Below are positions 1,665 through 47,579 of a DNA stretch of 64,000 bases, in pieces. Below the pieces are notes generated by a model, which was not told where the DNA came from, did no database searches, and saw only the letters and a list, made by a program, of their open reading frames with translations. The position numbers and the translations under genes are program-made. Source of the DNA: Sulfurihydrogenibium azorense Az-Fu1 (GTDB lineage: Bacteria > Aquificota > Aquificia > Aquificales > Hydrogenothermaceae); NCBI RefSeq assembly GCF_000021545.1, contig NC_012438.1:1-64000 (forward strand). Reading direction: 5' to 3'. Each line of letters opens with the position of its first letter. Position 1 is the stretch's first letter.

Positions 1665-3036
1665 AAAACTCTTGAAAATTAAATAGAAGGATACTTTTAT
1701 CCTTTTTAGCCAAGTCTATGAGTTCTTTTGTAAACCCAATTTTGGAAAATACAGCGTAGTACTCTTTTCTTTTATCCTTTTTCCAATCTACTTTTTTAGC
1801 CTTTTCTTTAAGCTGATGTAAAACGTTTACTCCTACCAAAGAGTCCCAGTATTTACACTCTCCAAAAAGGATACTATCCTCTCCTACTGCAACTACATCA
1901 ATCTCTGTATCTTTATCCCACCATTTACCAGCTTTATATATGTGAAATGGAATATCTAAATCGTAAATGTACTCTAAAACAATCTCTTCAAAGGTAAAAG
2001 ACTCAAAAACATGGAAGTCTGATTTTATTTTATCTAAAACGTAATCATACTTACCTGTTTCTAAATAGTTCTGATATGGAAATACATACTTAAACCAAAA
2101 GTTAAAAAAGTTATCTTTTATAAAGTACAAACCTTTTTTACTTTTTTCCGGATTTTCTTCTGTTATGGGAACTTTTCTCTCTAAAATATCAAGCTCTATA
2201 AGTTTTTCTATAAAGGATGTTAAATTCTGGGTTTGCATTCCCAATTTTGATGCTATTTTTCCTATTTTGTGTTCTCCCTGTGATATAACTTGAAGTATAG
2301 AAAAGTATGTAATTGGGTCTTTTATCTCCTCTTTCAAGATAAATTTAGGTTCTTCATAAAGGTAGCTGTTTTTATGTAGAACATTCCTTCTTATATTTTC
2401 AAACACATCTAAAGTTTCGTCAAAAATCTCTATATATCTTGGAATTCCTCCTATTACACTGTAAAATTCTAAAAGTTTTAAGTTATCTAAGCTTTTGAAA
2501 AATTTTTTAAAGTTTTTAAAGTTCATAGGCTTTAATTTTATTTGAGCTGTTCTTCTTCCGTAGAGAGGGCTTGTGTATCCAAGAGTAGTTTTATACATCA
2601 AACCTATCAAAGATCCACATAAAATAAGCATTAGATTTTTGTTTTTCAGTAAGTTATCCCATATACTTTGGAATATAGATGGTATACTGCTGTTTACTTG
2701 TGCTAAATACTGAAATTCATCTATCACTATTATTAACTTTTTTTGTACCTTGGTTGCGATATACTTAAAGATCGTTTCCCAGTTCTCTACTGTTAAACTT
2801 TTAAGTAAATCATCATTTAAAACTTCTGATACTACATTTTTAAAACTCTCTATCTGTAGTTTTTCGTTTTGTAAAGTTGCTAAAAAATATACAGCTTCTT
2901 TATTCTCTATAAACTTTTCTATAAGGGTGGTTTTCCCTGTTCTTCTTCTACCGTAGATTACAACAAAAGATGAAGTATCCTTTTTATACTCTTGCTCAAG
3001 AATTTGAAGTTCTTCTTCTCTATTTATAAATCTCAA
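1663..3036 (-). CDS. ATPase of the archaeal-ATPase/DUF234 family
   Basis: 457 residues. The N-terminus FINREEELQIL and Walker A YGRRRTGKTTLI (about 27-38), and Walker B LIIVIDEFQYL (about 100-110), are those of the STAND-like archaeal ATPase family (PF01637). A winged-helix region follows (about 240-300). The C-terminus EIDVVAVGED...LFGECKYW has the D...ExK spacing of the DUF234 PD-(D/E)xK-like domain. Cellular role is unknown in the family; a nucleic-acid related or defence role is conjecture. Start is TTG at 3036 behind GGAGA. It is last in the minus-strand run that begins with mutS, 47 nt after the Mre11 gene, and may have its own -10 (TATAAT) in that gap. Confidence 0.8.
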   Translation of the reverse strand: MRFINREEELQILEQEYKKDTSSFVVIYGRRRTGKTTLIEKFIENKEAVYFLATLQNEKLQIESFKNVVSEVLNDDLLKSLTVENWETIFKYIATKVQKKLIIVIDEFQYLAQVNSSIPSIFQSIWDNLLKNKNLMLILCGSLIGLMYKTTLGYTSPLYGRRTAQIKLKPMNFKNFKKFFKSLDNLKLLEFYSVIGGIPRYIEIFDETLDVFENIRRNVLHKNSYLYEEPKFILKEEIKDPITYFSILQVISQGEHKIGKIASKLGMQTQNLTSFIEKLIELDILERKVPITEENPEKSKKGLYFIKDNFFNFWFKYVFPYQNYLETGKYDYVLDKIKSDFHVFESFTFEEIVLEYIYDLDIPFHIYKAGKWWDKDTEIDVVAVGEDSILFGECKYWDSLVGVNVLHQLKEKAKKVDWKKDKRKEYYAVFSKIGFTKELIDLAKKDKSILLFNFQEF

Positions 3037-45628: not shown

Positions 45629-45862
45629 TTAAAACTTACCTACTATAATATCAGACACTTTGATAACAGCTAAAACTTCCGTACCTTCTTTAAGAGTTTC
45701 AAGACAGACTCCAGTTGTTTTGCTTTCATCTTCCCAATCTGTTAAAAAGTACTTAGCCCTAATTGAACCAGAGAACTTAGACTCCTTTATAGCAGAGAAT
45801 ATGTCATCAGCAGCCATAACACTGGTTGACAAAAGTAAAGAAGTCAAAAGAGCCTTCCTCAT
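45629..45862 (-). pseudogene. Porin N-terminus fused to a Mop-domain C-terminus
   Basis: 77 codons in one open frame. Residues 1-17 are a signal peptide and 18-50 (ADDIFSAIKESKFSGSIRAK) resemble the start of Aquificales/Epsilonproteobacteria outer-membrane porins. Residues 54-77 (LETLKEGTEVLAVIKVSDII) are the end of a Mop/TOBE molybdate-binding domain. A deletion near 45700-45712 seems to have joined a porin gene to a molbindin gene in frame. The product would be an exported fragment and is probably nonfunctional. Confidence 0.65.
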
Positions 45863-45920: not shown

Positions 45921-45938
45921 ATATGATAAATATCATAT
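45921..45938. promoter_or_regulatory. Crp/Fnr-like palindrome
   Basis: ATATGATA-AA-TATCATAT, perfect 8-bp arms. The core aTGAT-N4-ATCAt differs from the FNR consensus TTGAT-N4-ATCAA only at the outer bases. Its centre is about 42 bp upstream of the start implied by the -10 at 45893-45898, the position used by class II Crp/Fnr activators. Confidence 0.45.
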
Positions 45939-45977
45939 GTATAAACCAATTTCTTATTGTTGTATAAAATAACACTA

Positions 45978-46514
45978 TTAGCTACTAACTAACGATTTAA
46001 TGTATTCTAATAAATAATCTTTTCCTACATAAAATTTATGTTCTTCATATAATTTCCCGTCATAACTGTAAACAAAAACACCATCAGATTCAAAGGGAAG
46101 AATTACTCTCCATTTTCTTTTATTTTCTGGATTTTGAGGGTTAAAAAGTTCTTTATCTACATCAGGAGTGGCAAGTAAATATTTATAATTCTTTTTATAT
46201 TGCTTTACCTTTAAAGCCCAGTAAGCAGTTTGTGCTCCTCTTTCTCTAAAAGATTTTTTTACAGATATTACACAAACAAGTTTATTATCTTTCTTTCTAA
46301 CTACACAAACGTCTGCATCAATCATCTCACTTTTATCACCATATTGAATATAAAGCTCTTCTATGTTTTTTAAAACTTTGGAAGGATGTCCTATGGAAAA
46401 ATGTTCTCTAATCTCATTATCACTTAAAAGTAGTTGAATTACTTCTTTTTCTTTATCTTTTCCCGCTTTACTAACATTGCTTTGTCTTTCTTTTATAATC
46501 TTTTCTTTTTTCAT
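45978..46514 (-). CDS. Type II restriction endonuclease, CCGG family (BsaWI-like)
   Basis: 178 residues from ATG 46514 (RBS TAGGAGA; an ATG five codons upstream lacks one). The fold-type signature of PD-(D/E)xK enzymes is seen as Asp68 (IDADVCVV) and SVK (84-86). Residues 86-92, KKSFRER, match the K-x-S-x-R-(D/E)-R motif that CCGG-family endonucleases (Bse634I, NgoMIV, BsaWI) use to read the CCGG core. It is divergent from a methyltransferase with 87 nt between starts. The exact recognition site cannot be read. Confidence 0.75.
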   Translation of the reverse strand: MKKEKIIKERQSNVSKAGKDKEKEVIQLLLSDNEIREHFSIGHPSKVLKNIEELYIQYGDKSEMIDADVCVVRKKDNKLVCVISVKKSFRERGAQTAYWALKVKQYKKNYKYLLATPDVDKELFNPQNPENKRKWRVILPFESDGVFVYSYDGKLYEEHKFYVGKDYLLEYIKSLVSS

Positions 46515-46552
46515 AATATCTCCTATCAAATTTAATTTATGAAGAATTATGC

Positions 46553-46558
46553 TATAAT
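46553..46558 (+). promoter_or_regulatory. -10 box of the methyltransferase gene
   Basis: TATAAT, about 43 nt before ATG 46602, in a gap that also contains TATTAT-like sequence for the opposite direction. The promoters of the two restriction-modification genes therefore overlap or face each other within about 40 bp. No strong -35 is visible. Confidence 0.5.
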
Positions 46559-46601
46559 ATAGATGTTTGTAAAAAGTAGCACCTAAAATTTGGGGGTTAA
46601 A

Positions 46602-47579
46602 ATGAAATACCTAACAGGAAAAGAAAACAAAGAAATTAAGATAAGATTAAACTATAATACCTTTGAAAAACTAAAGGAAGTGTCTTTTAAAAAGGAAATA
46701 AGTTTAAATTTTTTGATAAATCAAATACTTGAAAAAGAGATAAATGAAAGTAATTATGAAAAGGATATTAAGAATTATTTTAAAGAAAAACCAGAACTTA
46801 TTTTTAGTAACGATAAAATAAAGTTATTCCATAATGACTTTATAGAAGTTGACTTATCTGACTACAAAGGGAAAGTTAATTTAATAATTACCTCTCCACC
46901 TTATAACGTTGGAATAGAATACGGAAAACATAACGATGCCGTGAACTATGAAGATTATCTTTCTTTTACAGAAAAATGGTTGTATAAATCTTATGAACTT
47001 TTAGCTGATGATGGAAGGGCATGTATAAACATTCCTTTAGACAAAAACAGGAACGGATTGAAACCTGTTTATGCTGACTTTATAAATATTGCCAAAAAAG
47101 TAGGTTTTAATTATCAATCTACTATAGTTTGGAATGAACAAAATGTATCAAAAAGAACTGCATGGGGAAGCTGGCTTTCTGCTTCTGCACCTTATGTTAT
47201 AGCACCTGTTGAGATGATTGTAGTACTGTATAAAAAACAATGGAAGAGAATAAACAAAGGAGAAAGCACAATAACAAGAGAAGAATTTATACAGTGGACT
47301 AACGGAGTTTGGAACTTTTCCGGAGAGAGTAAAAAAAGAGTTGGACATCCTGCTCCTTTTCCATTAGAGCTTCCCAAGAGATGTATAAAACTTTTTTCAT
47401 ACAAAGATGATTTAGTGTTAGACCCTTTTTCTGGTAGTGGTACTACCCTTATAGCTGCTTTTAAAGAAGAAAGGAGAGCTATTGGAGTAGAAATTGACAA
47501 AAACTACATAGATTTATCTGTTGAAAGATTAACAAAAGAAATAAGCAAACCTCAAAAAAACTTATTAAATATTGATTAA
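46602..47579 (+). CDS. DNA (cytosine-N4-type) methyltransferase with RHH-like N-terminus
   Basis: 325 residues from ATG 46602 (GGGGG upstream). TSPPYNV at 97-103 (motif IV of the m4C type) precedes DPFSGSGTTLIAAF at 274 (motif I), the beta-class order seen in M.PvuII and M.BamHI. Residues about 10-49 (KEIKIRLNYNTFEKLKEVSF then SLNFLINQILEKEI) look like a ribbon-helix-helix DNA-binding domain: strand, helix, turn, helix. It should protect the host from the divergent endonuclease, and the extra domain may let it repress its own operon. No separate C-protein is present. Confidence 0.88.
   Translation: MKYLTGKENKEIKIRLNYNTFEKLKEVSFKKEISLNFLINQILEKEINESNYEKDIKNYFKEKPELIFSNDKIKLFHNDFIEVDLSDYKGKVNLIITSPPYNVGIEYGKHNDAVNYEDYLSFTEKWLYKSYELLADDGRACINIPLDKNRNGLKPVYADFINIAKKVGFNYQSTIVWNEQNVSKRTAWGSWLSASAPYVIAPVEMIVVLYKKQWKRINKGESTITREEFIQWTNGVWNFSGESKKRVGHPAPFPLELPKRCIKLFSYKDDLVLDPFSGSGTTLIAAFKEERRAIGVEIDKNYIDLSVERLTKEISKPQKNLLNID

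Follow-up and report, generated by a model that had tools for sequence, protein, structure and literature searches.

A divergent gene pair in the window (the whole stretch of 64,000 nucleotides analysed, from a thermophilic bacterium) places a restriction endonuclease and its protective methyltransferase on one short common control region, and probably constitutes a compact type II cassette whose methyltransferase doubles as a transcriptional regulator, acting through an operator, with the endonuclease proposed to follow later. An N-terminal ribbon-helix-helix (RHH) domain of the methyltransferase very probably grips a conserved 16-base candidate site in that region to control both genes. By analogy, the best reading of the locus would be a self-regulating methyltransferase of the SsoII/Ecl18kI kind in which the regulatory part is an RHH domain and the enzyme is of the N4-cytosine (m4C) type. 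The pair comprises a BsaWI-family endonuclease gene (45978-46514, minus strand) and a gene for an SPPY-type DNA methyltransferase (46602-47579, plus strand), whose ATG start codons, at 46514 (minus) and 46602 (plus), leave an intergenic gap of exactly 87 bp, in agreement with the coordinates and gap given in the original prediction. That prediction had also noted the absence of a C-protein, and indeed no separate small helix-turn-helix (HTH) or C-protein ORF was seen in the gap or adjoining either gene; unlike C-protein-regulated systems, the window thus has no separate small HTH gene next to the endonuclease gene.

The module (45938-47578) has no counterpart in G102, the closest genome of the same genus as judged by glmS (protein 95% identical). 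A blastn comparison of the window with L153, together with the junction sequence, reveals an empty site in G102, where about 21 bp connect the same two flanks that here enclose 1.64 kb. Endonuclease, methyltransferase and operator can therefore be regarded as a self-contained cassette of ~1.6 kb, either acquired in the window genome or lost from G102. A porin-like outer-membrane gene at 45629-45862 is truncated: over its first ~53 residues it agrees with an ORF of 463 aa that is intact in G102 (L153), and its reading frame then departs from that ORF ahead of the modA gene. In another genome of the Hydrogenothermaceae (G088) the pair has decayed, leaving fragments of both the endonuclease and the methyltransferase gene (L059).

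The endonuclease (178 aa, BsaWI/CCGG family) matches the Pfam model RE_BsaWI (PF18643) at 109.6 bits, against a cut-off of 26.2 (E=9.5e-32), and its gene is preceded by a Shine-Dalgarno-like AGGAG (46520-46524, minus strand), five bases 5' of the start codon. The K-x-S-x-R-E-R motif from which a CCGG-family enzyme had been proposed holds up in this family match and in the alignment, where D68, K86, S88 and R90-E91-R92 are invariant among 13 relatives from systems with and without the RHH domain. The motif K86-x-S88-x-R90-E91-R92 (46239-46259, minus strand) combines the catalytic lysine with the R-(D/E)-R CCGG reader, a role described for BsaWI (W/CCGGW; PMC4652773), which belongs to the same endonuclease family and has the same continuous R-(D/E)-R motif. 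The window enzyme differs from BsaWI and the RE_BsaWI family in its length of only 178 aa, and lacks most of the N-terminal extension present in RHH-lacking relatives. A single-sequence phmmer search against the PDB retrieved no relative, and the sole match of the family profile at E<=1 was PfoI, a CCGG-family enzyme, at a weak E=0.16. Taken from these motifs, CCGG would be the predicted specificity of the endonuclease; CCGG is not avoided in 864 kb of the host genome, made up of the window and a further 800 kb (1408 sites observed, 1231 expected), a count that neither supports nor excludes this specificity, and WCCGGW forms, at 0.83-0.94 of expectation, give no avoidance signal. In the same 864 kb there is strong avoidance of CTAG and GATC, which reach 0.12 and 0.17 of expectation, as well as a depletion of GATATC (0.5), shortages that may be caused by other restriction systems or by repair. 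BsaWI-family endonucleases also occur with other partners: in L038 (same genus, G099) the methyltransferase in tandem with one is of another kind and hardly related to that of the window, and in L039, L041, L042, L046 and L047 the neighbouring methyltransferase is likewise barely related.

The methyltransferase (325 aa, beta-class order) belongs to the N6_N4_Mtase family (PF01555, E=1.4e-48), with TSPPY preceding DPFSGSG. An SPPY sequence in motif IV characterizes N4-cytosine methyltransferases; here it occupies S98-Y101 (46893-46904, plus strand), and TSPPY is invariant in the alignment of relatives. The best structural match is TTHA0409 of Thermus (2zie), followed by the A. vaga m4C, CcrM and PvuII enzymes, so that both m4C and m6A enzymes match by structure. 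The m4C type assigned originally is supported at the level of motifs, which would point to m4C chemistry.

The N-terminus of this enzyme is, according to structural modelling, an RHH fold (residues 10-49; 46629-46748, plus strand), which bears out the suspicion that had been raised from the sequence. The AlphaFold2 model of residues 1-62, for which a ten-sequence alignment served as input, contains a strand or extended segment at ~10-17 and helices at 18-31 and 35-49 (pLDDT 89-95); the absence of a formed strand in the monomer is expected, since its partner strand is missing. In Foldseek searches against the PDB, nearly all of the matches listed are RHH proteins (StnY, Arc, CopG, AmrZ, MatP, ParG, SvtR), with probabilities up to 1.00 and best TM-scores to the target mostly of 0.7-0.85, while all E-values exceed 0.1 because the domain is only ~45 aa long. 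Individual members of the family match Pfam RHH_3 (8e-4), HicB, VAPB_antitox and MatP_C weakly, with scores below the curated cut-offs; the RHH superfamily is defined by its fold rather than by any single sequence model. The predicted DNA-reading strand is E11-I-K13-I-R15-L16 (46632-46649, plus strand), and the residues expected in the sheet (E11, K13 and R15) do not vary among the nine RHH loci that have an endonuclease, a point in favour of the proposed DNA reading. From the perspective of known RHH regulators, such as Arc, CopG, ParG and the VapB/HicB-type antitoxins, the window protein shares the strand-helix-helix fold, the predicted reading by the sheet and the proposed autoregulation of a two-gene module. 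Those regulators, however, are standalone or carry a toxin-binding tail, whereas this RHH domain is fused to a 260-residue methyltransferase.

The candidate operator, CACC-TAAAATTT-GGGG, is an imperfect inverted repeat of 16 bp (46580-46595, plus strand) recognised by its conservation in RHH loci, and its presence in the gap supports the proposal that regulation operates there. CACC-N8-GGGG is found in its strict form in seven of the nine endonuclease-paired RHH gaps and in strict or relaxed form in all nine, the motif having been defined from the RHH loci themselves and then relaxed for two of them (L048, with a spacer of nine, and L053, with CCAC), so that discovery and test data overlap except for the distant lineages. 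Among RHH-lacking relatives (n=51, 300 upstream bases each), the strict motif occurs once and the relaxed one four times; for the strict form, the difference between RHH and RHH-lacking loci gives a Fisher p of 7e-7 with kinship ignored. In a de novo count, the commonest gapped word pair is again CACC-N8-GGGG, present in 7/9 gaps, compared with five or fewer in 300 dinucleotide-shuffled sets; of the nine gaps, the six from the Hydrogenothermaceae are mutually related. The strict pattern derived from that family recurs in independent lineages (L029/L052, shuffle p=0.0026; L005, p=0.0031), L053 matches the relaxed form (shuffle p 0.009), and the entire 1.64-Mb genome holds four CACC-type sites.

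With regard to the promoters, which like the start sites were assigned from consensus matches alone, the predicted extended -10 element of the methyltransferase gene, TATGCTATAAT (46548-46558, plus strand), conforms to TATG(C/T)TAWRAT in six Hydrogenothermaceae loci. The seventh locus of this layout (type A), L052, has TATAAT as its -10 box and the same spacing to the operator. In the type-A loci (n=7) the operator starts 20-21 bp past the methyltransferase -10 box, the intervening 20 bp being poorly conserved and the CACC half fully conserved. In the two most divergent loci, L005 and L053, the operator is inverted and directly adjoins TATAAT, upstream of the -10 box; the L053 message is probably leaderless, as its start codon lies 7 bp past TATAAT. 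In every locus the operator therefore lies where a bound protein would be predicted to block the promoter of the methyltransferase gene. The predicted endonuclease promoter, TTTACA-16-CATAAT (46546-46573, minus strand; 10/12 consensus matches), is weak, given that 0.7 such sites are expected in shuffles. It begins, on its -35 side, ~7 bp from the candidate operator, and its -10 box overlaps the extended -10 of the methyltransferase on the opposite strand, so that use of one promoter should preclude use of the other. There is no CCGG in the 87-bp gap, which renders promoter-methylation control of the CfrBI type unlikely.

These features resemble those of the SsoII/Ecl18kI systems, in which two methyltransferase molecules bind an intergenic inverted repeat and block the methyltransferase promoter, and in which the promoters overlap and polymerase can occupy only one of them at a time (PMC3695355; PMC12707154). 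The likenesses include divergent genes, a short gap (109 bp there) and a CCGG-superfamily endonuclease (PMC3695355; PMC12707154), as well as a regulatory DNA-binding region of ~70 residues at the N-terminus of the methyltransferase and an operator-like inverted repeat between overlapping promoters. SsoII-type systems have an operator distinct from the methylation site in the common promoter region; the gap here holds the conserved candidate site and no CCGG. The differences concern the parts: theirs are a C-protein-like HTH, an m5C enzyme and a 15-mer of the GGACAAATTGTCC type, whereas the window has an RHH domain, an m4C-type enzyme and CACC-N8-GGGG. Since the RHH domain sits on an SPPY enzyme and not an HTH on an m5C enzyme, the window system falls outside SsoII-type membership, although by analogy it would appear to work like that type. 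The domain combination had originally been regarded as unfamiliar among CCGG systems. This stands in that no description was found of an m4C-type enzyme bearing an RHH domain, and needs qualifying in that SsoII/Ecl18kI already pairs a methyltransferase bearing a regulatory N-terminal HTH with a CCGG-superfamily endonuclease (PMC3695355).

In the proposed mechanism, the RHH domain would dimerise and insert its two-stranded sheet into the CACC-N8-GGGG candidate operator between the divergent genes. The bound methyltransferase would then sit at about +15 to +31 relative to the start site of its own gene, within the RNA polymerase footprint or at its border, and would repress that gene. Clearing polymerase from the methyltransferase promoter would free the endonuclease promoter, given the overlap of the -10 boxes; early synthesis of the methyltransferase would thus be followed by self-repression, with the endonuclease rising only once the methyltransferase had accumulated. 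Self-repression is the better supported half of this scheme, ahead of the proposed rise of the endonuclease. In a less likely alternative, the RHH protein would dim the two genes to the same extent from a single operator, and the endonuclease would not be delayed. It draws on the distance of only ~7 bp between operator and predicted endonuclease -35 and on the short-gap loci, which place the operator about at the expected endonuclease -35; yet the endonuclease promoters are poorly defined, and in the closest known case repression by the methyltransferase falls on its own gene, to the advantage of the endonuclease gene (PMC3695355).

The distribution of the RHH domain was surveyed in GTDB genomes and in sets covering the Aquificota (136 genomes), the Thermotogota (103 genomes) and the L008 phylum (395 genomes), in which RHH copies are confined to a few lineages. 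These include six loci of the Hydrogenothermaceae, the window among them, one of the Desulfurobacteriaceae (L029, as L052), one of another Aquificota family of the same order (L053), one in a Thermotogota MAG (L005) and one on a viral contig (L061) that lacks an endonuclease; apart from this viral case, no further copies with both domains were found beyond the known set in phages, plasmids, the 395 genomes of the L008 phylum or the Thermotogota. A match in a Lachnospiraceae phage (H9/L069, matched from residue 4) was rejected as an RHH copy, having no match to the RHH profile. All nine endonuclease-paired RHH copies are divergent from their endonuclease gene, with gaps of 59-99 bp, while the eight BsaWI-paired relatives lacking the domain are tandem (L031, L043, L075, L076, L077, L088 and L091) or convergent (L018). 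In a tree of the catalytic part, all RHH copies fall in one clade (support 96/98) together with the viral L062, which has no RHH domain; most simply, the domain was gained once, and the association of domain, layout and operator consequently represents one event with one origin, not nine. The operator motif is absent upstream of the viral L061 methyltransferase, itself without an endonuclease partner. In L061 (region 2850-3000), GCGT-N8-ACGC occurs upstream of that gene, with the same 4-8-4 layout in other letters, and its predicted strand has R in place of K13; as this is one case only, the GCGT-N8-ACGC site could be due to chance.

This distribution bears on a further explanation, an unlikely one, in which the RHH domain would be a targeting or dimerisation arm that aids methylation and has no regulatory role. 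Modification systems do use RHH domains for scanning DNA, DndE being an example (PMC10853773), but close relatives of the window enzyme function without the domain, including L043, L076 and L077, which belong to the nearest sister lineages and are paired with an endonuclease of the same family, and the domain accompanies a divergent common promoter with a conserved site in it. Least probable of all, and quite improbable in itself, is that CACC-N8-GGGG would be a translation signal, either a G-rich ribosome-binding site or a leader hairpin, with the RHH role lying elsewhere: GGGG does end 5-9 bp ahead of the start codon in type-A loci, but the CACC half is fully conserved there, leader folding is no better than in shuffles (z ~0.2-0.6, window and L049), L005 possesses its own AGGAGG, and both L005 and L053 have an inverted motif at the -10 box, upstream of that box and outside the methyltransferase message, which argues against a ribosome-binding site.

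Self-regulation of the methyltransferase through its RHH domain, the favoured reading, touches on the long-standing question of how a restriction-modification module can enter a new host and leave it alive. By 2013, six methyltransferases, all of the m5C type, had been confirmed to regulate themselves (PMC3695355), and the section on this subject in a 2025 review treats m5C-type systems only (PMC12707154). A search of the literature (open-licence papers) for RHH-methyltransferase fusions found none. What is new here is the use of RHH in an m4C-type enzyme, together with its 16-bp candidate operator; self-regulation had previously been shown only with a different DNA-binding domain. If RHH-based self-regulation of an m4C-type enzyme is true, this solution would be a modular one with more than one evolutionary origin, and the defined 16-bp candidate operator makes it directly testable.

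The same catalytic core also occurs with an N-terminal MerR-type domain (HTH_17; Pfam E 1e-9 to 8e-15) in MAGs of the Chloroflexota, Nitrospirota and Deltaproteobacteria (L006, L007, L008, L013, L015, L023 and L089). By eye, four of these loci (L008, L013, L015 and L089) have a common TTGACA promoter with two RTGTTG repeats in the spacer. The combination of a MerR-type domain with promoter repeats of its own suggests a second, independent self-regulating form. On balance, it would seem that one m4C-type lineage took up DNA-binding domains of unrelated kinds on two occasions, an RHH domain and a MerR-type HTH_17, both accompanied by a conserved promoter element of their own, in a repeated plug-in of self-regulation outside the m5C enzymes. 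The MerR/HTH_17 fusions (among them L006, L008, L013, L015 and L023) resemble the window enzyme in catalytic core, in having an N-terminal DNA-binding domain and, in some cases, in their conserved promoter repeats; they differ in the type of that domain, in the repeats themselves and in the nuclease partner, since the nuclease genes that adjoin several of them look, by eye, HNH-like and not BsaWI-like.
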